Shown here in pieces: positions 5,868-46,097 of a stretch of 64,000 nucleotides of DNA. Each line of letters begins with the position of its first letter. Position 1 is the stretch's first letter. The notes under the pieces were generated by a model, which saw nothing but the letters and a program-made list of their open reading frames with translations, ran no database searches and had not been told where the DNA came from. The position numbers and the translations under genes are program-made. The stretch is from Arenibacter hampyeongensis (GTDB lineage Bacteria; Bacteroidota; Bacteroidia; Flavobacteriales; Flavobacteriaceae), in the NCBI RefSeq assembly GCF_002909255.1, contig NZ_PIOB01000005.1, positions 1 to 64,000 on the forward strand. The letters run 5' to 3'.

Positions 5868-6551
5868 CTATTTTTCATAATTTGTGATAAAATAATTTTC
5901 AAATGAAAAGTGACAGTCTGGAAAGACGTCTGTTGTGGTTATCAGGTTCAAAATCCTGTCTATGCGAAATTCCCGCAAGTCTTTTCTTAATCGGCAAAAC
6001 GCAACCATTATCCAATTTCCTTTGGTAAAGTAAACCGCCAATGGTTCAACAAATCTATCAGAAACGGTATCAGAATATATTGTGTGATACTTGATTTTTA
6101 TCACCCAACAATTTGTTATTGCTAACTGAATGGCTGAGAGAAAGTTGGTTTCGTTTGTGGGTTCGCTGGAAAAAATATAAAGTCGTTCTTCCAATTTTTC
6201 AGCCTTCCCTTTTTCCGAATAGCGAATGATAGCTTTTATTTTAGTTACAACGTTTACAAGGTCGTTGTATGCGGACTTGTCAGCATTTTTCTGAAAGTAT
6301 TTCTGTGCGGTCAGCAATGCGTTTATTTCCTGTTGGGTAAACATTACAGGCGGAATTCGGTAGCCGTCGGCCAAAGAGTAGCCTTTGCCTGCTTCACCTA
6401 TTATGGGAACGCCTGCTTCTTCCAATGCCCTGATGTCCCGATAAACGGTTCTTTGGGCAATATTAAACTTGTCGACAATTTCTTGTGCAGTTACCACTCG
6501 TCTTGACTGCAAGTGTAGCAAAATATTTGTCAATCGTGTTAGTCGTGTCAT
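5868..6551 (-). CDS. YafY/DeoR-type transcriptional regulator with WYL domain
   Basis: A 227-residue regulator. Residues 4-60 form the HTH_11 helix-turn-helix (TRLTNILLHLQSRRVV, IAQRTVYRDIRALEEAGVPI), the classical start of YafY-like proteins. Residues about 135-225 form a WYL domain: WVIKIKYHTIYSDTVSDRFVEPLAVYFTKGNWIMVAFCRLRKDLREFRIDRI shows the expected pattern, with the F-R-x-D-R-I end. WYL domains sense small ligands or nucleic acids. It precedes the SRPBCC lipoprotein gene by 62 bp and probably controls it. No defined operator is visible. Confidence 0.9.
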   Translation of the reverse strand: MTRLTRLTNILLHLQSRRVVTAQEIVDKFNIAQRTVYRDIRALEEAGVPIIGEAGKGYSLADGYRIPPVMFTQQEINALLTAQKYFQKNADKSAYNDLVNVVTKIKAIIRYSEKGKAEKLEERLYIFSSEPTNETNFLSAIQLAITNCWVIKIKYHTIYSDTVSDRFVEPLAVYFTKGNWIMVAFCRLRKDLREFRIDRILNLITTTDVFPDCHFSFENYFITNYEK

Positions 6552-36296: not shown

Positions 36297-36875
36297 TTAA
36301 AATTTATATGAATAGCCCAAAAGGTAGTTGCCATTGGTGCTGTTGAAGCTAATTTTCATGTGGTTTTTTTGGTACGGTGTAGTAAAAATATAGGAGCTGC
36401 CAACACCTATTATGGCCCCTGCCAACACATCCCAACCGTCATGTTTATCCCCTTGTAATCTAGTATAGCCGGTAAAGCCTGCAAGTGCATAGGCCACCGC
36501 ACCGTATTCCCATCCATAGCGTTTTTGAATGAATGCTGCACTCTGAAAGGTGGTTGAAGTATGCCCGGAAGGAAATGAAGAATTATTGCTTAAATCCGGT
36601 CTTGGCTTATCTATGGCCACTTTTAGTCCTATCGTCAGTGCTTGGTTTAAGATAAATCCTTTGGTAAACTGCCAAGTACCCTGTTTGTCCCCAATAGCTA
36701 TAGTACTGCCCAATGAAGATGCCGGCAAGGCTATCAATAAAACATTACCTATGTCTGTTATTGTTTTATCTTGTGCAGATAGCCTTAAAATACTTAGGAA
36801 TAGTAAGATTATCAAAAGTGGTGACTTGGGATATTGACGGATTATTAAAATAGCATTGTTCAAAATAGAGATCAT
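36297..36875 (-). CDS. PAP2-family membrane phosphatase 1
   Basis: A 192-residue phosphatase of the PAP2 (lipid phosphatase) family. The start at 36875 (MISILNNAILIIRQYPKS) is preferred over the ATG at 36914, because the upstream promoter site places transcription start near 36,918. The signature is complete: K-x6-R-P (KVAIDKPRP), S-G-H (FPSGHTSTTFQSAAF) and the third motif R-x5-H-x3-D (RLQGDKHDGWDVLAGA). Family members dephosphorylate undecaprenyl-PP, phosphatidic acid or lipid A. A CTTTAR direct repeat lies 26-65 bp upstream, linking it to the neighbouring two-component system. Confidence 0.9.
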   Translation of the reverse strand: MISILNNAILIIRQYPKSPLLIILLFLSILRLSAQDKTITDIGNVLLIALPASSLGSTIAIGDKQGTWQFTKGFILNQALTIGLKVAIDKPRPDLSNNSSFPSGHTSTTFQSAAFIQKRYGWEYGAVAYALAGFTGYTRLQGDKHDGWDVLAGAIIGVGSSYIFTTPYQKNHMKISFNSTNGNYLLGYSYKF

Positions 36876-36923
36876 TTCAAAAGCCGTTAAAAGGTGTGCG
36901 ACTGGCATACCCATTGGGAGGCG

Positions 36924-36958
36924 TAAATAAAATTAAAGAATCTAAAGATAAATTAAAG
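36924..36958 (-). promoter_or_regulatory. CTTTAR operator/promoter of the PAP2 gene
   Basis: CTTTAAT-N4-CTTTAGA on the minus strand, 11 bp apart, then N9 and a weak -7 box TTTATTTA. Same geometry as the sites at 39869, 39955, 44037 and 46063. Confidence 0.6.
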
Positions 36959-37858
36959 TTGGGGCTCAATGTTTTTGGGGGCAAGAATACCCAACGATTT
37001 CTCCAAGACGGAAATGCTTATAATTTTGTCTTCAACCAAATGGAATTCTCCATCTATTTGAGAGTCCAGAAATAAACCCCCACTCCTATGGATTTGTAAA
37101 TTTTTGGTTTGATAAGTCTTAATTTCCTTAAGCCAATGGGACTTGCGGATCAACATTAAGGCACCGAACAAAAGCATTTTTAATTTGCTTAATTCAGGAA
37201 CTATAAGTACGTCCAACTTTCCATCCATCAAGGAGGCTTTGGGCGTTAAACTAATGTTGAATCCCAATTCATTGGAGTTGGAGACAAATACTAGAAATGG
37301 GTTTAGTATGACATGGTTCCGATCAATGGATATCTTTACATCCCTTTCCCTTTTATACTCATTAAAAGATTTAAAGGAGGCCTTAATGTAACCTATAATG
37401 GTTCTCTTTTTTAAGGCTTCATAGTTTTTTATGACATGGGCATCAAATCCCAATCCAGTGTTGCTAAAAAAATATTGTTCATTAATTCTTCCAACATCAA
37501 TGGTCAAAACATCCTCATTTTTAATTATCTCAATGGCATTTTTAATGACTTGGGGAATCATTAGGTGTGAGGCAAGGCCATTTCCAGATCCTATAGGGAT
37601 TATACCCAGTTTTATGTTTGTACCAACCAAACAGGAGGCAATCTCATTGATGGTACCATCTCCCCCACAGGCTACTATGGTCTGGGCTCCTTCTTTGATG
37701 GAATTATTTGTCAGTGTAATCGCCTGTTTTTTAAATTTTGAATATTTAACGCACAGGCTATAATCAGTTGCATGGAAAAATGGTCTAAGGAAGTCAATAT
37801 CTAAAATATTATTGCCTGAACCTGCTTTGGGATTAATAATAAAATGAATATTTTTCAA
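36953..37858 (-). CDS. Diacylglycerol kinase-type lipid kinase
   Basis: A 301-residue protein of the DAGK catalytic/YegS family. Visible are FIINPKAGSGN (start of the catalytic domain), the ATP-binding VACGGDGTINEIASCLVG, LGIIPIGSGNGLASHL, and a C-terminal beta half with SLTPKASLMDGKLDVLIVPELS and SQIDGEFHLVEDKI. It phosphorylates a lipid, probably diacylglycerol or sphingoid/ceramide-like lipids. It lies 5 bp downstream of the LTA-synthase-like gene on the same strand, so the two share a transcript. That pairing suggests recycling of the diacylglycerol left when a phospho-headgroup is transferred from a phospholipid. Confidence 0.92.
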   Translation of the reverse strand: MKNIHFIINPKAGSGNNILDIDFLRPFFHATDYSLCVKYSKFKKQAITLTNNSIKEGAQTIVACGGDGTINEIASCLVGTNIKLGIIPIGSGNGLASHLMIPQVIKNAIEIIKNEDVLTIDVGRINEQYFFSNTGLGFDAHVIKNYEALKKRTIIGYIKASFKSFNEYKRERDVKISIDRNHVILNPFLVFVSNSNELGFNISLTPKASLMDGKLDVLIVPELSKLKMLLFGALMLIRKSHWLKEIKTYQTKNLQIHRSGGLFLDSQIDGEFHLVEDKIISISVLEKSLGILAPKNIEPQL

Positions 37859-37863
37859 AATGC

Positions 37864-39840
37864 TTATTGCTTTGTCCTAAGGCCTTTATGGGTGTATAAA
37901 TAATTGGCTACTTGATAAAACGCTATAGTGGTATCCAGATAATTCTTGTCCGTAGGAATTAAAGATAGGTTATTGTTGGTGGGATTCCATTCATAAAAGT
38001 TGGCCTTCTTTTGATCTCCCAAAACCATTACTTTGTTTCCTTTTAAAAGGCCCAATTTTCTGTAATTGCCTATAAATGCCCTTTCGTCTTCCAGCTTCAT
38101 GCGAAAAATATCTTTCCCGAACAAATTACTGGTGTAATCCCACCTTAATAACGAAAATACCGTGGGAAAGATATCTATCTGGGAACAAAGTTTATTTAAT
38201 CTTTGTGGAGGAATGTTCGGTAGATTGTAGATCATAGCAGGAATGTGGTAATTGTTTATATCCAGTTCCCCTTTTCCGGCACTACTGGCACAGTGATCGC
38301 TCATTATTACAAGTATAGTGTTTTTATACCATGGCTTTGTCTTGGCGATTTTCAGGAATTCCCCTATGGCAAAATCGGTATACTTTATGGCTCCAGCCCT
38401 GCTGGTACCGGAAGGAATGTCTATTTTGTCCTCTGGATAGGTGTAGGGCTTGTGGTTGGAAGTGGTCATTACAAAATCAAAAAATGGCTTATTGGCTTGG
38501 TGTGCCAAATCGGCTTCCTTAATTACTTTATTATAAATGTCCTCATCGCAGACACCCCATGCATTTTCAAAAGTCACTTCTTCATCCTCAATATTGGTTC
38601 GTGTGGTTTGTATACTCTTATCCAACAGAAATCCTCTGCCCCTATCCACTATATTAAATCCGTTGCCGCCAAAGTAAGTATTCATATTATCGAAATAACC
38701 ATCTCCACCATAAAAGAAATTTCGGCTGTATCCTTTATTTTTAAAAACTTCTCCAATGGTGAATAGATCCGTATTGTCTTTGCGTTTAACAATGCTCCTA
38801 CCCTGTGTAGGGGGAATGGATAGGGTTATGGCTTCCATGCCGCGAACAGTCCTTGTTCCGGTGGCGTAAAGATTGGTGAAAAATATGCTGTTATTGGCCA
38901 AACTGTCCAAGGTTGGGGTAATGTTATAATCACCGCCAAGGGAATTTAAGTATTTGCTACTCAAGCTTTCAATACATATGAAAATAATGTTCGGTTTAAG
39001 GGGTTTGGAGATGGAATCCGTATTGTGGATTGTTCTAAGTATGGAATACTCTTTTGGTTTTAGAAAAGTTGACTTTTCATTGCTGTAGGATGCTTTGACG
39101 AGTTCAAAGGCCTTTTCAGTATTTATAGTAGTGTAAAAATCAGTAAATGAAAGTTCGTTGTTCCTGAAGGCGGCAAAGAACGAATAAATTCCAGCTTTGG
39201 ACAGCTCGTTATTATACCTGTTGGCAAACTGTTCTGCATGTTTGTTCTTAATAAATAAGCCAGAAATAATTGTTATGCCTAAAACAAGCAAAAATGGTAA
39301 CAATTTGGCCTTAAAGATGGTAGTGCTTTTAAAAGTTTTGGTGAAGACCGATTTTTTGTATGTAATAAAAATTAAGGTTCCAACTGCAATTAGGATTAGC
39401 GTAACCAGATAGGGGATTGGATACGATTCATTGATGTTTTTGACCACTTCATAGGTGTAAACCAAATAATCGACCGCAATAAAATTGAATCTATTTTTAA
39501 ATTCGTCCCAAAATGTGATCTCTGCGAAGAAAGAAAATAGAAATATCATTAAACCTATAGTGTAAGCTACATATGTGATCCACCTGTCTACAATTCTTCC
39601 GTGGAACTTTTGGGGCATTAGTAGTAAATAAATGGAGTAAGGCAATGCAAAGAACGAGATGGTGCCTACATCAAACAGAAATCCGATACAAAAAGTTGCG
39701 AGTAATGTTCCAATTGTGGTGTCAATTTCCCCAAAGCTCCAAATCAGGAATACCATCCTAACCATAAAAGATAAGCTTAGAAAAATAAGGATAAAAGTTT
39801 TTAATAGTGCAAATCGGTCAGGGAATATTTTTTGCCACAT
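37864..39840 (-). CDS. LTA-synthase/EptA-like sulfatase-fold transferase
   Basis: A 658-residue membrane enzyme. N-terminal membrane segments lie at about 12-33, 44-75, 90-108, 143-160 and 180-197; the extracytoplasmic sulfatase-fold domain starts near 283 (NIIFICIESLSSKYLNSLGG, with the metal-binding Glu291). The nucleophile is the Thr in ATGTRTVRG (about 331), and other metal ligands are in VIMSDHCASSAGKG. Such enzymes transfer phosphoglycerol or phosphoethanolamine from a phospholipid. In a Gram-negative cell an EptA-like or glycerophospho-decorating role is likelier than lipoteichoic acid synthesis. It carries a CTTTAR operator upstream and is followed by a lipid kinase gene. Confidence 0.92.
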   Translation of the reverse strand: MWQKIFPDRFALLKTFILIFLSLSFMVRMVFLIWSFGEIDTTIGTLLATFCIGFLFDVGTISFFALPYSIYLLLMPQKFHGRIVDRWITYVAYTIGLMIFLFSFFAEITFWDEFKNRFNFIAVDYLVYTYEVVKNINESYPIPYLVTLILIAVGTLIFITYKKSVFTKTFKSTTIFKAKLLPFLLVLGITIISGLFIKNKHAEQFANRYNNELSKAGIYSFFAAFRNNELSFTDFYTTINTEKAFELVKASYSNEKSTFLKPKEYSILRTIHNTDSISKPLKPNIIFICIESLSSKYLNSLGGDYNITPTLDSLANNSIFFTNLYATGTRTVRGMEAITLSIPPTQGRSIVKRKDNTDLFTIGEVFKNKGYSRNFFYGGDGYFDNMNTYFGGNGFNIVDRGRGFLLDKSIQTTRTNIEDEEVTFENAWGVCDEDIYNKVIKEADLAHQANKPFFDFVMTTSNHKPYTYPEDKIDIPSGTSRAGAIKYTDFAIGEFLKIAKTKPWYKNTILVIMSDHCASSAGKGELDINNYHIPAMIYNLPNIPPQRLNKLCSQIDIFPTVFSLLRWDYTSNLFGKDIFRMKLEDERAFIGNYRKLGLLKGNKVMVLGDQKKANFYEWNPTNNNLSLIPTDKNYLDTTIAFYQVANYLYTHKGLRTKQ

Positions 39841-39868
39841 ATTTGGGAACGATAGAATAATTATGCTA

Positions 39869-39903
39869 TAAAATTAGATTAGAAATCTAAGGGAAACTTA
39901 AAG
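39869..39903 (-). promoter_or_regulatory. CTTTAR operator/promoter of the LTA-synthase-like gene
   Basis: CTTTAAG-N4-CCTTAGA on the minus strand, 11 bp apart, then N9 and -7 box TAATTTTA. The -7 box lies 29 bp before the start codon. Confidence 0.65.
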
Positions 39904-39954
39904 TTGTGTAGTTCAGGGGAGTTTGTCCTAAGTTTAAGATTCTTTGATCTATGA

Positions 39955-39989
39955 CTTTAGATTTAAAAAAGAATTTGGGTTTAGTTTTG
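39955..39989 (+). promoter_or_regulatory. CTTTAR operator/promoter of the second PAP2 gene
   Basis: CTTTAGA-N4-AAAAAGA-N9-TAGTTTTG on the plus strand. The first half-site is well kept, the second degenerate, the -7 box exact, and the spacing identical to the other four sites. Confidence 0.5.
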
Positions 39990-40021
39990 AATTCCAAAGT
40001 ATTATTTAAAACTATAAAGGC

Positions 40022-40789
40022 TTGAAATTCAACCATTTGGTATTCTTGGCATCTATATGCACAATTTGGGTTGTTACACCCGTTATGGCCCAGCAATCAA
40101 GTCATGATAGTTTAACTTTTCCCAGTAAACATGAGTTTAAATATCAAAGCCTTATGGTACCTATTTCATTAATCACATACGGTATTGTTGGGATTGAAAG
40201 TGATGGTTTAAAATTGTTTAATTCTGAAATTAAAGAAGAGGTGAATGAGCATATAGATCGAAATATAACCATCGACAATTTCTCTCAATATGCACCAGCC
40301 CTATCCGTATACGGTTTAAACTTGTTAGGGGTAAAGGGAAAAAATGATTTTAAAGACAGGACCATTATCCTAGCCACATCTTACCTTATAATGAGTTCAA
40401 GTACCTTGGCGTTAAAGTCCATAACAAAGGTAAAAAGACCGGACGGCAGTTCTTTAAATTCCTTTCCTTCAGGCCATACGGCAACTGCTTTTATGGGTGC
40501 GGAATTCTTATATCAAGAATACAAGTCGGTTTCTATATGGATTGGGGTTGCGGGTTATTTGGTCGCTAGCGGGACTGGATTATTTCGGGTCTACAATGAT
40601 AGGCATTGGTTAACCGATGTTGTGGCTGGTGCAGGGATTGGAATGATGAGTACAAAAATTGCCTATTGGTTAATGCCCAGTATTCGAAATAAAATTTTTA
40701 AGAGGGGTAGTGAAACTACTACAACTGCAATCTTAGCGCCCTTCTATACCAATGAAGCTATCGGAATCACTTTTACGGCTTCTTTTTAA
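40022..40789 (+). CDS. PAP2-family phosphatase 2, with signal peptide
   Basis: A 255-residue PAP2 phosphatase that starts with TTG (MKFNHLVFLASICTIWVVTPVMAQ, an apparent signal peptide). Motifs: KSITKVKRPDGSSLNSFPSGHTATAFMGAEF (K-x6-RP, then PSGH) and RVYNDRHWLTDVVAGAGIG (R-x5-H-x3-D). Membrane segments flank them. PAP2 proteins dephosphorylate lipid phosphates such as lipid A, undecaprenyl-PP or phosphatidate. The upstream region carries the degenerate CTTTAR site with an exact -7 box. It is followed 25 bp later by the COG4705-like membrane protein gene. It differs in sequence from the PAP2 protein at 36297, so the pair is not a recent duplication. Confidence 0.92.
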   Translation: MKFNHLVFLASICTIWVVTPVMAQQSSHDSLTFPSKHEFKYQSLMVPISLITYGIVGIESDGLKLFNSEIKEEVNEHIDRNITIDNFSQYAPALSVYGLNLLGVKGKNDFKDRTIILATSYLIMSSSTLALKSITKVKRPDGSSLNSFPSGHTATAFMGAEFLYQEYKSVSIWIGVAGYLVASGTGLFRVYNDRHWLTDVVAGAGIGMMSTKIAYWLMPSIRNKIFKRGSETTTTAILAPFYTNEAIGITFTASF

Positions 40790-40814
40790 TTATTTATACC
40801 AAACGAAATAGCTT

Positions 40815-41558
40815 ATGAAAAAGGTAGCCGAAGTAACCCTGGTTTTTTGGGTAATGAAAACATGTGCAACTACCTTTGGGGAAACCGCTGGAGACCTGCT
40901 TTCCACGACATTAAAGATAGGTTATGGGCTTAGTTCTGTTATATTGCTCGGATTTTTTTTGGTAACATTAATACTTCAACTAAAATCAAAAAAATACAAT
41001 CCGCTAATTTATTGGCTGGTAATTATTTCGACCAGTACGGCGGGTACTACCATTTCGGATTATATGGATAGAACCCTTGGATTGGGATATGCAAAGGGAT
41101 CATTACTGCTTTTTTTGTGTCTCATGACCGTTTTATTGGTTTGGTGGAGGACGGAAAAGTCATTGGAAGTATCCAATATTTCAAACTTTAGGCCTGAGCT
41201 ATTTTACTGGATGGCCATCTTGTGTTCCAACACATTGGGCACGGCCTTGGGCGATTATCTTGCAGATGATTCTGGTCTAGGTTTTGCTGGAGGGGCATTA
41301 TTAATAGGCCTATTGCTGCTGGGGGTGGTATTCTTGAAATTTTACACCCATGTATCTACTATTTTACTCTTTTGGGTTGCTTTTATTTTAACAAGACCAT
41401 TTTGGGCCACTTTTGGCGACTTACTTACAAAACCCTTGGAAAAGGGCGGATTAAATCTTGGGACTTTTGGTGCCTCAGCTGTCCTACTTTCAATTTTGTC
41501 CATTTTGATTGTGAATGAGCTCTTGCGAAAGCAAAAACAAATAAGAGAGATCAATTAA
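40815..41558 (+). CDS. COG4705-type membrane protein with four internal repeats
   Basis: A 247-residue integral membrane protein with four related units: KTCATTFGETAGDLLS then IGYGLSSVILL; TSTAGTTISDYMDRT then LGLGYAKGSLL; CSNTLGTALGDYLADD then SGLGFAGGALL; RPFWATFGDLLTKP then GGLNLGTFGAS. Each has a T-x-G/A-x(3)-D pattern and a Gly-rich membrane segment. This fits the COG4705 family of uncharacterised membrane proteins. Function is unknown. Its place 25 bp after a PAP2 gene, inside a regulated lipid-modification cluster, suggests a role at the membrane under the same stress. Confidence 0.8.
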   Translation: MKKVAEVTLVFWVMKTCATTFGETAGDLLSTTLKIGYGLSSVILLGFFLVTLILQLKSKKYNPLIYWLVIISTSTAGTTISDYMDRTLGLGYAKGSLLLFLCLMTVLLVWWRTEKSLEVSNISNFRPELFYWMAILCSNTLGTALGDYLADDSGLGFAGGALLIGLLLLGVVFLKFYTHVSTILLFWVAFILTRPFWATFGDLLTKPLEKGGLNLGTFGASAVLLSILSILIVNELLRKQKQIREIN

Positions 41559-41594
41559 AATTGATTTCATTGCCATTCGGAAAATATTGGAGTG

Positions 41595-44018
41595 CTAAAA
41601 CTTATACTTAAATCCGACTCTTACAATCTGTGTTTCAAAATAGTTTTCATATAATGCTGTAAAGCCATCACTTTTCACTTCTTGTCTCAGGCCAAAGGTG
41701 TTTAAGATGTCGGAAGCAGATAGTGTAAATTCTCCATGACCGTCCCAAACAATTTTCTTTAGGCCCGCATCGATCGAGGATCTTGATAGTTCTTTGCCTT
41801 GAGGGATATTTTTATCTGAATAGTAAAGTCCGGTAAACTGAAGAGCCCATTTTTTTGGCAAGTTAATTTCATTGTTAATTTTAAAATCCGCTGCATTATC
41901 GGATGATTTTTCAATAAAAAATGGTCTCACATAGGGAAATAATAAAGTGCCGGTATAGTTGTCTATGCTATTTACGTACCAATTAAAACTTGCGGATAAT
42001 TTCCAATTTTGGGTAATGTCCTGACTTACCAGGAGTTCTATACCCGTATTGGTGGCATTACCAGTGTTCTGATATATTTTGTTTACAATATCATAATTTG
42101 GATTGGAATCGTCTATGCTAAAAATACGCATATATTGATCCATGATCATTCTGTGGTAAATGGCCGAAAAAAGGGAGCCCTTTCCCCAGCTGTATTTATG
42201 GGCAAGTTCCATGGCATCCGTAAATTGAGGCCTTAGATAAGGGTTGCCCACTTTTAGGAGTTCCGGGTCGTCATATTTTGGGAAAATCCTGAGTTCCGGT
42301 TCGCCCGGCCGGTCTACCCGCCTATTGTAAAAAATGGAGAGTTTGTTGTAATCATTGACTTTATAGGTGAATCTAAGGCTGGGAAAAAGTTCGAAGTAGT
42401 TATAGGCGTCGTTATTCAGGTAGTAGCTGTTTGCGGGATCTATATTGTAAAAAACATCCGTGTGTTCGGCACGCAGCCCGGCTTCAATGTCAAATTTTTC
42501 CTGTTCCAACAAATAGTTGGTGTAAAGTGCATATAGATTTTCGCCCCAATCGGAATATGCCCCCATATTGGGATAAATAATACTATTGTTCCCGGGTGTT
42601 ATAGTATACTCCACGGGTAATCTTCTGATTCTGGCCTTGGTTCCCAATTCTATTTTTCCGTGTTTCAAAGCCCTGGAGTAATCTGCGGATAAGCTTGTTG
42701 TATGCTCAATGGCCAGGATATTGGTGGCATCCCTTCCTACCCTAACGGCCGAGCTATCGTTCAGGTAATAACTTTCATCTTCCAGGCCTTTTGTGTATTG
42801 TAAATAGGCACTAAGGGTATGTCCTATTTTGTAAAATTTATGTTTATAATTAACGGCAACATTGACATAACTTGTAATTTCTTCTTCCTGCCAATTGTAA
42901 TACCTTTCCCGGTTAGTGGTATTCAGATTTATAAATGCCACCTGTGATGTATCTATGTGCTTTTCACGATCGTACGTTCCGGAAAGGGTAATGGCATCAT
43001 TTTCTGTTAGTTCCCAATCCAGACCGCCATTAATAATTGCTCTGAACTGTTGGCGGTTTTCCGGTACTTGGGAAACGGTATTTCTGCCATCATCATAGTG
43101 TCGGGTTGTAAACTCGTTATTTGGCAGGGCCTCCTGCAAAATAAATTCCGATAGTACAAAATAATTCAATTTATTGGTCTTGTAATTGAAATTTAGGCTG
43201 GGAATAAGTTTTGGGTTAAGGGAGTAGGATCCAAGATCGGTTTTGGTATCCTCCTTCTTTTTGTCCAATGCCCCGATACCAAAGGAAAGTCCTACATCAC
43301 CGTTAAGCCCGGTTTTATTTTCTTTTTTATAAATAATATTAATGATTCCTGCAAATCCATTTGCGTCGTATTTGGCTGATGGATTATTGATTATTTCAAT
43401 TTTGTCTATGTTGGCAGCAGGGATATTGCCCAATCCTTTTTGATTCCCAAATCCGGTGAGACTGGATTGTTTACCGTCGATTAAAATAACCACCTTGTCA
43501 CTTCCCCGAAGTATTACTTTGCCTTCTTGATCAAAACTTACTCCGGGCATGGTTTTCATGGCATCAAGCACAGAACCACCAGTTTGGGCAATATTGTCGC
43601 TTAGATTAAAGGATTTTTTATTCAACTCAGAATTGGTAGTTGACTGTTTTCCGGTAACCTCTATTTCATTTAGCATTTCTGCGTCCGGGGATAATGCTAT
43701 TCGGCCCAGATCGAACACGGTGTTTAGACCTCCGGTGACTATTTTTTGCGTTGCCCCCGCATATCCCAAATAGGAGAAATAAATAGTATAGGTGTCTATT
43801 GGGATATTCTCAATAAAAAACCTTCCATCATCATCGGTAACGGCTCCTGTCACCAAAACATTGTCGGAAAAACGGTTTACCGATACGTTGGCAAATGGCA
43901 AAGTCACATTAGTCTCCAAATCTACTAATCGTCCAGTGATACCGATGGCTTTCTGTGCAGAAACGGCTGTAAGGCCAAGTAGTATAAATAGTATTAAAAG
44001 AGAGGTTTTCATTTTCAT
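41595..44018 (-). CDS. TonB-dependent-receptor-like outer membrane protein
   Basis: An 807-residue outer membrane protein. Signal peptide (about 1-21), carboxypeptidase-regulatory-like domain (about 24-105: GITGRLVDLETNVTLPFANVSV, DDDGRFFIENIPIDTYTIYFSYLGY), plug domain (about 130-235: LDAMKTMPGVSFDQEGKVILRGSDKVVILIDGK), and a beta-barrel of the outer-membrane-beta-barrel-3 type with many aromatic strand ends, closing with IVRVGFKYKF. It lacks an obvious SusC-type STN domain and has no SusD partner, so a polysaccharide role is not indicated. It has its own CTTTAR promoter just upstream, in the 72-bp gap after the histidine kinase gene, so it belongs to the regulon. Confidence 0.92.
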   Translation of the reverse strand: MKMKTSLLILFILLGLTAVSAQKAIGITGRLVDLETNVTLPFANVSVNRFSDNVLVTGAVTDDDGRFFIENIPIDTYTIYFSYLGYAGATQKIVTGGLNTVFDLGRIALSPDAEMLNEIEVTGKQSTTNSELNKKSFNLSDNIAQTGGSVLDAMKTMPGVSFDQEGKVILRGSDKVVILIDGKQSSLTGFGNQKGLGNIPAANIDKIEIINNPSAKYDANGFAGIINIIYKKENKTGLNGDVGLSFGIGALDKKKEDTKTDLGSYSLNPKLIPSLNFNYKTNKLNYFVLSEFILQEALPNNEFTTRHYDDGRNTVSQVPENRQQFRAIINGGLDWELTENDAITLSGTYDREKHIDTSQVAFINLNTTNRERYYNWQEEEITSYVNVAVNYKHKFYKIGHTLSAYLQYTKGLEDESYYLNDSSAVRVGRDATNILAIEHTTSLSADYSRALKHGKIELGTKARIRRLPVEYTITPGNNSIIYPNMGAYSDWGENLYALYTNYLLEQEKFDIEAGLRAEHTDVFYNIDPANSYYLNNDAYNYFELFPSLRFTYKVNDYNKLSIFYNRRVDRPGEPELRIFPKYDDPELLKVGNPYLRPQFTDAMELAHKYSWGKGSLFSAIYHRMIMDQYMRIFSIDDSNPNYDIVNKIYQNTGNATNTGIELLVSQDITQNWKLSASFNWYVNSIDNYTGTLLFPYVRPFFIEKSSDNAADFKINNEINLPKKWALQFTGLYYSDKNIPQGKELSRSSIDAGLKKIVWDGHGEFTLSASDILNTFGLRQEVKSDGFTALYENYFETQIVRVGFKYKF

Positions 44019-44036
44019 TCTAAATTCAAAATTGAG

Positions 44037-44071
44037 GAAAAGTAACAGAGTAATCTAAAGAGAATTTAAAG
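44037..44071 (-). promoter_or_regulatory. CTTTAR operator/promoter of the outer membrane protein gene
   Basis: CTTTAAA-N4-CTTTAGA on the minus strand, 11 bp apart, then N9 and -7 box TACTTTTC, 18 bp before the start codon. Confidence 0.65.
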
Positions 44072-44090
44072 CTTATCTCTTAGGGCATTT

Positions 44091-45368
44091 TTATTCATTG
44101 GAGGCCGGGGCTGTAACAAAATCTATTGAAAAACAATGATGGTCGTTTACATGCTTATAGGAAACGTGGTAACCGTATAGGTCACATATCTTTTTTACAA
44201 TGGCGAGACCCAGTCCAGTCGATTTTATTTCCTTGGTTTCTCTATAAAATCGCGTAAAGAGATGTTGTGGATTGGCAATTGGCTTAAGGCCAAAATTGGA
44301 CACAGTAATGGCCATTTCATTCGCCACTATGGTTATTGGCTCACTATTGGTGTTATATTTTATAGCATTGGAAATAATGTTTGTGCACAATATTTCTGCC
44401 AAATACGGATCCATGCTGACCACAATGTTGTTGGTTTTTTGAAGTGATAGGGCAATTGAGGATATCTCACTAAAATTCGCAATTATTTGGTCTATTATGG
44501 CAGTAATGTCAATATTTTCTTTGTGCGTAAATTGTTGGTTCTCCAGCTTGGTCAACAGGGTCAAACGTTTGTTTAATTGCGTCAGGCGCTGTATGTCCTT
44601 TTGTATAGATGTCAATTGGTTAAATTGTACCTCGGTTACCGTTTGATCGTTAATTATATTTTCAATTTTGGCCTGTATTATGGCCAGCGGGGTCTGAAGT
44701 TCGTGGGAAACATCCTCTGTATATTGTTTCAAGTTTTCGTAATCGTCCTTCACTTTAACTGTCAATAGGGTAATCTCTTTATTCAATTCGGAAAATTCAA
44801 GAATTTCACTGTCCAGAAACTGTATTGGTTTTTTGGACAACAAGGAAAATGTTTTCATCTGTTCCAAATTGTGGAAAAACGGATACCATAGCTTCTTGTT
44901 GTAGGATTTATTTAGATAAAATTGGAAAATAAAAACTAGGAAGATTATAACTATGTAAGAAAGGATAATGGCCCATAAAATTTGGTTGGACTCTACAACA
45001 AGAACACGCACCGATATCTTGTAAAATTTGCTGTTAATATTCTTGTAGGTGGATAATTCCCTAAACAATTCCATTTCATTTTGGGAGGGGTCGTATATGA
45101 CCGTGTCTTTGGTAAATGTTGCTTGTGGGTGGTCTACCTCAACAACCTCAATTATAGGTGCCAAGGAACTGGGATGTTTTCCCGCCATAAGCGCGCTTTC
45201 TATTCTCGCTTCTGCTGAAAACAGTTCCTCTTCCACTTCCTGCTTAAGAAGCCAACTTACGTAAAAGTAGAGCGCAAAGGTACTAATGACCATTAATAGC
45301 AAGCTTGCCCAAAAAAATGTTTTGGAAGCCTGCTTTAACAACGGTATTTTAATATTCTTCTTGATCAA
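44091..45368 (-). CDS. Sensor histidine kinase
   Basis: A 425-residue membrane kinase. TM1 at about 17-39, a small periplasmic sensor of about 90 residues, TM2 at about 131-151, then HisKA with the phospho-accepting His222 (EDVSHELQTPLAIIQAKIENI), and HATPase_c with N-box ISNAIKYNTNSEP and G-box STGLGLAIVKKICDLYGY. It forms an operon with the response regulator gene, with a 3-bp gap, and should phosphorylate it. The periplasmic sensor, rich in acidic residues (EVDHP, SQNEMELFRE), has no recognised domain. The neighbouring genes suggest it senses envelope or antimicrobial-peptide stress, as PhoQ or PmrB do. Confidence 0.95.
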   Translation of the reverse strand: MIKKNIKIPLLKQASKTFFWASLLLMVISTFALYFYVSWLLKQEVEEELFSAEARIESALMAGKHPSSLAPIIEVVEVDHPQATFTKDTVIYDPSQNEMELFRELSTYKNINSKFYKISVRVLVVESNQILWAIILSYIVIIFLVFIFQFYLNKSYNKKLWYPFFHNLEQMKTFSLLSKKPIQFLDSEILEFSELNKEITLLTVKVKDDYENLKQYTEDVSHELQTPLAIIQAKIENIINDQTVTEVQFNQLTSIQKDIQRLTQLNKRLTLLTKLENQQFTHKENIDITAIIDQIIANFSEISSIALSLQKTNNIVVSMDPYLAEILCTNIISNAIKYNTNSEPITIVANEMAITVSNFGLKPIANPQHLFTRFYRETKEIKSTGLGLAIVKKICDLYGYHVSYKHVNDHHCFSIDFVTAPASNE

Positions 45369-45371
45369 GTT

Positions 45372-46049
45372 TTATTCTTCTGTAAATTTATAACCACTTC
45401 CGTATGCGGTCTTGATGTATTTTGCACCTTCGAACGTTAACTTTTTTCTGAGGTTGTTGATGTGGACATAGATAAAGTCAAAATTATCGGCCAAATCGCT
45501 GTTGTCGCCCCATAGATGTTCTGCAATAATTTCTTTGGACAACACCCTATTTTTATTGGTAACGAAGAAAAGTAACAGATCGTATTCCTTTCGGGTGAGG
45601 GTCATTGGTTTGTCTGCTATGTAGGCCGATTTAGCCCTGGTATCTATTCGTATTTCATTAAATGTAATACTTTCGTCGCCCCCAAATTTACCTCTTCTCA
45701 GTACAGCTTTTATCCTCGAATTAAGCTCTGCCAAATGAAAGGGCTTGGTTATATAATCATCTGCCCCCAAATCCAGACCTTCAAGTTTGTCGCTCAAAGA
45801 ATTATTGGCGGAAATAATTATTATACCAGCTTTTTTCTTTTCTTTTTTCAGTTGTTTTAGGACATCCAAACCACTTCCCGTAATCAAATTGATGTCCAGA
45901 ATAATTACATCGTAATCATATAGCGATACTTTGTATATGGCTTCCTCATAGTTGGACGCACACTCACAAACGTTCCCATCCTTTTCCAAATAGGTAACCA
46001 TGGATTGTTGTAAAGAAAGTTCGTCCTCTGCAATTAAAAGTTTCATCAA
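45372..46049 (-). CDS. OmpR-family response regulator
   Basis: A 225-residue regulator. Receiver domain (about 1-120) with phospho-acceptor Asp52 (VIILDINLITGSG) and the conserved Lys in TKPFHLAEL; winged-helix DNA-binding domain (about 130-222: LTRKEYDLLLFFVTNKNRVLSKEIIAEHLWG, FIYVHINNLRKKLTF and TAYGSGYKF). It precedes the kinase gene by 3 bp. A CTTTAAA-N4-CCTTAGA-N9-TAACTTTG site lies just upstream of its start, implying autoregulation. The same site stands before three or four other cluster genes, the basis for calling it their regulator; the DNA binding itself is not shown. Confidence 0.95.
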   Translation of the reverse strand: MMKLLIAEDELSLQQSMVTYLEKDGNVCECASNYEEAIYKVSLYDYDVIILDINLITGSGLDVLKQLKKEKKKAGIIIISANNSLSDKLEGLDLGADDYITKPFHLAELNSRIKAVLRRGKFGGDESITFNEIRIDTRAKSAYIADKPMTLTRKEYDLLLFFVTNKNRVLSKEIIAEHLWGDNSDLADNFDFIYVHINNLRKKLTFEGAKYIKTAYGSGYKFTEE

Positions 46050-46062
46050 TATAAATTATATA

Positions 46063-46097
46063 CAAAGTTACATCTTAAATCTAAGGTGAATTTAAAG
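46063..46097 (-). promoter_or_regulatory. CTTTAR operator/promoter of the two-component operon
   Basis: CTTTAAA-N4-CCTTAGA on the minus strand, 11 bp apart, then N9 and an exact -7 box TAACTTTG, 13 bp before the response regulator's start codon. Confidence 0.7.

Follow-up and report, generated by a model that had tools for sequence, protein, structure and literature searches.

A conserved direct-repeat operator and a predicted PmrAB-like envelope-remodelling regulon in Arenibacter hampyeongensis and other Flavobacteriaceae

In enterobacteria, the two-component system PmrAB (BasRS) responds to Fe3+, Al3+ or low pH and confers resistance to polymyxin, and an ExxE motif in its kinase, PmrB, binds Fe3+. 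The ColRS regulon of Pseudomonas includes a diacylglycerol kinase, DgkA, of the integral-membrane type, and PorX, of the PorXY system associated with type IX secretion in Bacteroidota, combines a receiver with a PglZ domain. Published reports describe the PmrA box as two hexamers, CTTAAT and CCTAAG, 5 bp apart (PMC3973317), name DgkA and a PAP2 protein as ColRS targets and (T/C)(T/C)NA(C/G)NN(T/C)TTTTT(C/G)AC as the ColR consensus (PMC2689224), and give TTTAACA as the core motif of PhoPR in Riemerella anatipestifer (PMC9603813). PhoPR was the sole two-component regulator of this group with a genome-wide binding motif that turned up in our open-access literature search. Here we describe a gene cluster in a 64,000-nucleotide stretch of the Arenibacter hampyeongensis genome (assembly GCF_002909255.1, contig NZ_PIOB01000005.1, positions 1 to 64,000, forward strand), hereafter the window, that is likely to be a self-contained, positively autoregulated, PmrAB-like envelope-remodelling regulon of Flavobacteriaceae. 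No report of this regulon turned up in our open-access searches, which mostly leave out subscription papers and do not establish its absence from the literature.

The original prediction, made from the letters of the window, was that five 35-bp strings in the cluster share an operator with half-sites 11 bp apart. All five strings are present, and the 20-mer referred to below is CTTTAA-N5-CYTTAGATT:

46063..46097, minus strand: operator with -7 box (CTTTAAATTCACCTTAGATT-N7-TAACTTTG), 5' of the response regulator/kinase operon; exact 20-mer match
44037..44071, minus strand: operator with -7-like box (TACTTTTC), 5' of the outer-membrane barrel gene; exact 20-mer match
39869..39903, minus strand: operator with -7 box, 5' of the transferase/lipid-kinase operon; exact 20-mer match
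36924..36958, minus strand: operator with weak -7 box (TTTATTTA), 5' of the first PAP2 phosphatase gene; exact 20-mer match
39955..39989, plus strand: degenerate candidate operator, 5' of the second PAP2 phosphatase gene (PAP2b); half-site 1 and TAGTTTTG kept, half-site 2 not

The four minus-strand sites are exact, with 11 bp from the start of one half-site to the start of the next. The -7 motif TAnnTTT occupies site positions 28-34 in three of them; the fourth, at 36924, overlaps the final bases of the lipid kinase gene and reads TTTATTTA instead, as the weak box noted in the original prediction. A shared operator therefore held for four of the five sites. The plus-strand candidate, already described as degenerate in its second half-site, has three mismatches to a degenerate 34-mer that includes the -7 motif, which is the background level, and is not supported as an operator on sequence alone. 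Its first half-site is conserved in the same-genus genome G005, which counts for little because the whole intergenic region is well conserved there. Elsewhere, the PAP2b family is preceded by a site in two of six test loci (G153 and G352; the loci are defined below), and a relative has one in G425.

Both strands of the source genome (5,431,642 bases in 28 contigs) were scanned with degenerate patterns. The 20-mer has four exact matches in the 5.43 Mb, namely the four minus-strand sites, and is thus unique to the cluster rather than equally frequent elsewhere; an off-spacing control, with the spacer one base shorter, has two exact matches, neither in the cluster. When up to two mismatches were allowed, the pattern matched 82 times and its reversed control 94 times; weaker sites are therefore indistinguishable from noise and the exact sites alone stand out. 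Three sites with a single mismatch lie outside the cluster and do not look like promoters, as two are internal to open frames and the third, a minus-strand site, is flanked by two plus-strand frames. Measured against the degenerate 34-mer, three of the four sites match perfectly and one has a single mismatch; the two next closest strings in the genome differ at 2 positions, and at up to three mismatches there are 30 matches in total versus 35 for the control.

A weight matrix built from the four window sites only, of which the first 20 positions were used for the main scan, was then applied to 25 test loci totalling 457 kb. These were two pieces of the dispersed cluster of same-genus genome G011, 22 loci from 21 genomes of 21 other genera, namely those with the regulator (E up to 1e-95) among 397 sampled Flavobacteriaceae genomes, and one locus of Nonlabens antarcticus (L046; Flavobacteriaceae), the sole locus used out of 80 kept from a separate contig scan. 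There were 51 matches at 18 bits or more. Five dinucleotide shuffles yielded 0, 0, 0, 0 and 1, and the loci of five related regulators (50-61% identity), 98 kb in total, yielded none. Lowering the threshold to 14 bits gave 95 matches, versus 5-8 in the shuffles and one in the five paralogue loci; the 95 were spread over 22 of the 25 loci, representing 18 of the 21 other genera plus Nonlabens, and 82 were intergenic and upstream of a co-oriented gene. The spacing is equally strict. CTTTAR-Nk-CTTTAGAWT, with one mismatch allowed, matched 85 times at k=5 and 0-4 times at every other k from 0 to 11, and distances between half-site pairs peaked at 11 bp (87 pairs) and 22 bp (27), with 0-8 pairs at every other distance between 4 and 60 bp. 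TAnnTTT stood at the predicted offset in 49 of the 95 matches and in at most five at any other offset from -7 to +22; as the -7 motif was left out of this search, that count is unbiased. Three or four half-sites in phase, in 11-bp steps, were found at five places (L178:19203, L219:13060, L217 minus near 6464, L175:8365 and L178:14500), which suggests that some promoters can be occupied by several regulator dimers at once.

The genes of the cluster were annotated with Pfam and NCBIfam profiles and compared with the nearest solved sequences in the PDB:

45372..46049, minus strand: OmpR/PhoB-family response regulator, 225 amino acids (Response_reg and Trans_reg_C)
44091..45368, minus strand: sensor histidine kinase of the NCBIfam PorY family, 425 amino acids (HisKA, HATPase; NF052314 398.3 bits, cut-off 350)
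41595..44018, minus strand: outer-membrane beta-barrel protein (OMP_b-brl_3), 807 amino acids (PF14905 251.6 bits, plug PF07715, carboxypeptidase-regulatory PF13715)
40022..40789, plus strand: PAP2-family phosphatase PAP2b (PF01569 55 bits)
40815..41558, plus strand: DUF347 membrane protein, next after PAP2b (PF03988 190.4 bits)
37864..39840, minus strand: LtaS/MdoB-type sulfatase-fold transferase, 658 amino acids (PF00884)
36953..37858, minus strand: diacylglycerol-kinase-type lipid kinase (PF00781 92.7 bits, PF19279), starting 5 bp after the transferase gene
36297..36914, minus strand: PAP2-family phosphatase PAP2a, weakly LpxE-like (PF01569 44.8 bits; NF007159 37.7 bits, cut-off 177)

With a receiver and a winged-helix effector in one protein and HisKA and HATPase domains in the other, the first two genes encode an OmpR/PhoB-family two-component system. 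The gene contents are as originally described, save that an 'EptA/LTA-synthase-like' enzyme is half right: the profiles found the sulfatase-fold domain PF00884 in the transferase and no EptA N-terminal domain, and its best solved relative is Vibrio VP1736 (PDB 3lxq; 249.6 bits), lipoteichoic acid synthase 2 scoring far lower (46.8 bits). By these comparisons it belongs to the LtaS/phosphoglycerol-transferase type.

Across the 397 genomes, of which 22 have a regulator orthologue and 28 a complete site (the degenerate 34-mer), a complete site is found in 17 of the 22 regulator-positive genomes versus 11 of the 375 others (Fisher p 1.6e-18, or 1.8e-17 without the window's own genome), a comparison in which related genomes are not fully independent and for which the 34-mer had been loosened after the relatives were seen. 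One match to the control pattern was seen, in G345. The recognition helix of the regulator, FIYVHINNLRKK, is present in 27 of 30 orthologue rows, with one-residue variants in the other three. In six paralogue rows its V is replaced by T, T, S, S, G or A and its first N by R, A, K, K, K or K. The BasR/PmrA helix at the same place reads EVHIHNLREK. In PmrA, base-specific contacts come from residues 188 and 196 and hydrophobic contacts to bases from residues 187, 192 and 195 (PMC4660055). When the regulator is aligned to PmrA, V192 and N196 are common to both, and N stands in place of H195. Among solved sequences, the nearest to the regulator are BasR/PmrA (135.7 bits) and, narrowly behind, DrrD of Thermotoga (134.2 bits). 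The regulator gene of one relative, G173 (L226:7226-7687), is reported with an internal TAG stop.

The sites could instead be operators of a different regulator, such as a 50%-identical paralogue in the same genome (C24:151009), or be shared with one, the local regulator being merely one of the targets. A paralogous pair is indeed present (L189:9010-11405, C24:151009), its regulator and kinase being 50% and about 30% identical to the local ones. It is followed by a PepSY-like protein, and its kinase scores 391.1 bits against NF052314, also above the PorY cut-off of 350. The 11 genomes that have a complete site without a close orthologue favour this alternative too. In one of them, G385, the site follows a regulator/kinase pair near a contig end (L248:2-1520), and another, G042, whose 61%-identical paralogue has the helix YTHMRN, has one complete site. 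Some of the 11 argue the other way: G009 carries a deletion scar of the cluster (see below), G354 has the cluster's targets and in G425 the site is upstream of a PAP2 protein; the remaining seven, G042 among them, are without explanation. The near absence of matches from the five paralogue loci and the strong association of complete sites with the orthologue also argue against another regulator, and we regard this explanation as unlikely, though close paralogues may recognise a nearly identical operator.

G175 (L230, L257) and G369 (L231), which belong to one genus and have no close regulator, carry complete sites away from known targets. One of these sites adjoins a fragment weakly like PepSY-like proteins, and the site strings of the two genomes are alike. 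These genomes may hold a further regulator with a similar operator, and their sites are another point for the alternative just described.

Repression of these promoters, with the signal relieving it, was also considered. As judged from their geometry, the operators overlap the expected -33 region, which in flavobacteria carries the element TTTG, and this placement is compatible with repression too. OmpR/PhoB relatives bound at that position usually activate. Upstream of labelled genes (see below), 79 distinct sites of at least 15 bits gave the consensus CTT(T/A)A(A/G)-N5-CTT(T/A)AGA(A/T)T-N7-TANNTTT(A/G); they were chosen with the full 35-position window matrix, so its letters, the -7 columns included, are biased. 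No -33 box is visible in this consensus, which is weak evidence because the matrix favours operator letters. On balance, repression seems improbable. A third possibility is that an alternative sigma factor recognises the conserved string itself, which would then be an extended promoter and contain no operator. The fixed distance to the -7 motif would suit such a promoter, but a direct repeat with 11-bp phasing, the runs of three or four half-sites and the co-occurrence of the string with the regulator would not, and the -7 box is of the ordinary flavobacterial type, TAnnTTTG; we give this explanation very little credence. Chance or descent, for example a recent duplication of one promoter, might account for similar promoters within a genus but is practically eliminated by the spacing and offset tests, which hold in other genera, and by information content in the 79 sites of just 0.11-0.24 bits at positions 22-27 versus 1.8-2.0 bits at the best core positions.

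Within the genus, 17 genomes were sampled and a close regulator orthologue (E up to 1e-60) was found in six, with 81-95% identity. The position of the cluster between serS and a TPR gene is kept in five (G002, G005, G006, G013 and G016), which have sites with 0-2 mismatches in the same promoters (regulator, outer-membrane protein, transferase and PAP2a), the regulator-promoter site having one mismatch in all five. The conservation expected by the original prediction is thus seen in these orthologous clusters as well as in the other genera. The PAP2b-DUF347 pair is present in only one of the five, G005. In the sixth genome, G011, the cluster genes are dispersed, and sites are kept before PAP2a and the transferase gene (no mismatches) and before the regulator gene (two mismatches). 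The serS-TPR interval of two genomes without the regulator, G003 (L181:9098-9405) and G009 (L182:9015-9319), keeps an intact regulator-promoter operator; of the regulator gene a few initial codons are left, and of PAP2a a 3' fragment. The two deletion scars apparently have the same junction. From these remnants the cluster appears to have been lost as one block, regulator and targets together, as expected of a self-contained module.

To identify targets in relatives, genes were labelled by their best BLAST match to genes of the window, G027, G011, G054 and G030, labels that are loose for the PAP2, ArnT and pump families, and a target was counted when a site of at least 15 bits lay upstream of the gene in the test loci. 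A site precedes the regulator gene in 18 of the 24 loci that hold it, and likewise precedes PAP2a (12/14), the outer-membrane barrel gene (11/13), the PepSY-like gene (10/13), the transferase gene (9/10) and the TolC gene of a resistance-nodulation-division (RND) pump (7/8). It is also counted before the genes for DUF347 (2/5), an epimerase (2/4), an ArnC-like GT2 glycosyltransferase (2/4), an amino-acid permease (2/4) and an ArnT-like protein (1/7). The kinase (0/24), RND pump subunit (0/11), lipid kinase (0/10), LAB_N (0/4), EptA (0/3), pump adaptor (0/1) and MgtC (0/1) genes have no site of their own, and many of them sit within gene strings behind a site-headed gene.

Some of these strings recall PmrAB targets. 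A site at 7129 of L215, in G153, heads a tight string that runs from two PAP2a genes through an HD-domain gene and a further PAP2 gene to an EptA gene, whose product passes an EptA equivalog cut-off (703.3 bits versus 561). In G027 (L178) and Nonlabens (L046), sites head a string of GT2, LAB_N and ArnT-like genes and a divergent epimerase gene; in G027 the ArnC-like and ArnT-like proteins score 98.6 and 71.2 bits, below the curated cut-offs of 529 and 567. EptA was found in four of 14 genomes searched, near the regulator in G027 and G173, in the site-headed string of G153, and on another contig, with no operator, in the window's own genome. Sites associated with the amino-acid permease occur in three genera, near the gene (L212:13344-13378) or directly before it (L216:6590-6624 and L176:6272-6306), and this is a target without an obvious envelope role.

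The geometry of the sites and the family of the regulator suggest an ordinary OmpR/PhoB activator scheme. The PorY-family kinase would sense an envelope signal and phosphorylate the regulator, a dimer of which would bind head-to-tail on the two half-sites (CTTTAR and CYTWAGA, 11 bp apart) in place of the -33 element and recruit RNA polymerase to the -7 box (TAnnTTTR) 7 bp downstream. At the cell surface, the products of the target genes would alter lipid head groups and phosphates. Of these products, the transferase would use a phospholipid donor and leave diacylglycerol, which the lipid kinase, presumably co-transcribed, would return to phosphatidic acid, and judging from the enzyme families the pair makes sense as such a cycle. 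The PAP2 enzymes would take phosphates off lipid A or carrier lipids. The outer-membrane and DUF347 proteins would be further members of the regulon.

More tentatively, and here we are rather less than evenly confident, Flavobacteriaceae may have their own counterpart of the polymyxin-response regulon, with one orthologous regulator, a PmrA-like operator fixed in position ahead of the flavobacterial -7 box, and a gene set exchanged from genus to genus (the LtaS/MdoB-type transferase and lipid kinase, EptA, an ArnT-like operon, PAP2, the RND pump, PepSY-like and DUF347 proteins), the kinase sensing cationic peptides or metal ions via a membrane-proximal acidic EVEEEL-type motif. In the window's kinase, EVEEEL is at residues 44-49, directly after the first hydrophobic segment. 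Of 30 orthologous kinase rows, 29 have an acidic xEExL stretch here, the exception being G176 with DD; all six paralogue rows lack it. Nonlabens was counted from the alignment. By analogy with the ExxE motif of PmrB, the EVEEEL-type motif is a candidate signal-sensing site.

Several observations weigh against an autoregulated, PmrAB-like regulon. Five of the 22 regulator-positive genomes are without a complete 34-mer, in six of the 24 test loci the regulator gene is not preceded by a site that reaches 15 bits, and no match of at least 14 bits to the 20-position matrix was found at the regulator locus in three of the 21 other genera (G054, G173 and G302). As the 34-mer was written after relatives had been seen, the genome-level association is supporting rather than wholly independent evidence. 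The regulator beside the complete site in G385, 70% identical in its DNA-binding part, has the YTHMRN helix of the G042 paralogue, and the operator may thus be common to near paralogues. The argument for activation rather than repression is a geometric one. NCBIfam ranks the regulator as CtrA (170 bits), PmrA (164.8 bits) and PhoB (161.2 bits), all far below cut-off, and with CtrA above PmrA and PhoB close behind, the sequence does not single out PmrA. Finally, the EptA-type gene of the window's own genome, which is outside the cluster (C28:40118-40540, L269; PF08019 112.6 bits), was rejected as a target, as no operator was found in its 3.4-kb locus, where the best matrix score was 7.0.

Elsewhere in the window, a ParD/ParE-type toxin-antitoxin pair is present at 853-1411 on the plus strand (PF03693 22.6 bits and PF05016 54.9 bits).

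The predicted regulon is well conserved and directly testable rather than a new kind of system. This work supplies a precise operator and its position relative to the unusual promoter of the phylum, and it predicts a regulon in the genus of the window as well as in 18 of the 21 other genera sampled. Two questions become testable, namely how OmpR-type activators act at -7/-33 promoters and whether a PmrAB-like switch governs surface-lipid and lipid A remodelling in Bacteroidota, and the DUF347, PepSY-like and OMP_b-brl_3 proteins of unknown role gain a regulatory context.

In comparison with known systems, the PorY label is broad, as the paralogous kinase passes the same cut-off, and we do not take it as a sign of type IX secretion control. 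The kinase resembles PorXY in passing the PorY-family cut-off, but its partner is a DNA-binding OmpR-type regulator (Response_reg and Trans_reg_C, no PglZ match) and not PorX, and no type IX secretion gene was recognised among the window's targets. Riemerella anatipestifer, a related bacterium, has in PhoPR another two-component regulator that binds DNA and whose motif was defined across the genome; the core reported for it, TTTAACA, is a different one (PMC9603813). The PhoPQ half of the original 'PhoPQ/PmrAB-like' label is without specific support, the regulator scoring 118.2 bits against NF008078, below the PhoP equivalog cut-off of 336. The PmrAB half gains from the EptA gene of L215 and the ArnC/LAB_N/ArnT-like strings of L178 and L046. 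Overall, the original prediction was partly confirmed in its observation and supported in its interpretation.

PmrAB is also an OmpR/PhoB regulator with its kinase; the operators of both are two direct hexamers with a 5-bp spacer, predicted EptA and ArnT-like targets occur in single relatives though not in the window's own genome, and BasR/PmrA is, narrowly, the best solved match. However, the regulator (NF007928, 164.8 bits) and the kinase (NF008025, 66.3 bits) fall well below the PmrA and PmrB equivalog cut-offs of 330 and 314, so the system resembles PmrAB without being a member. The half-sites are CTTTAA and CTTTAGA versus CTTAAT and CCTAAG, the kinase is of the PorY type, the transferase is of the LtaS/MdoB type with a true EptA elsewhere in the genome and no operator before it, and the predicted targets include the lipid kinase, PAP2, PepSY-like and outer-membrane barrel genes. 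The DgkA of ColRS, an integral-membrane kinase, is unlike the PF00781 kinase of the cluster. ColRS shares a PAP2 protein and a diacylglycerol kinase among its targets (PMC2689224), but its 16-bp consensus was not seen on inspection of the 79-site matrix. Set apart from PmrAB by the curated models and from ColRS by the sequence of its operator, the system nevertheless appears to work as both of them do.

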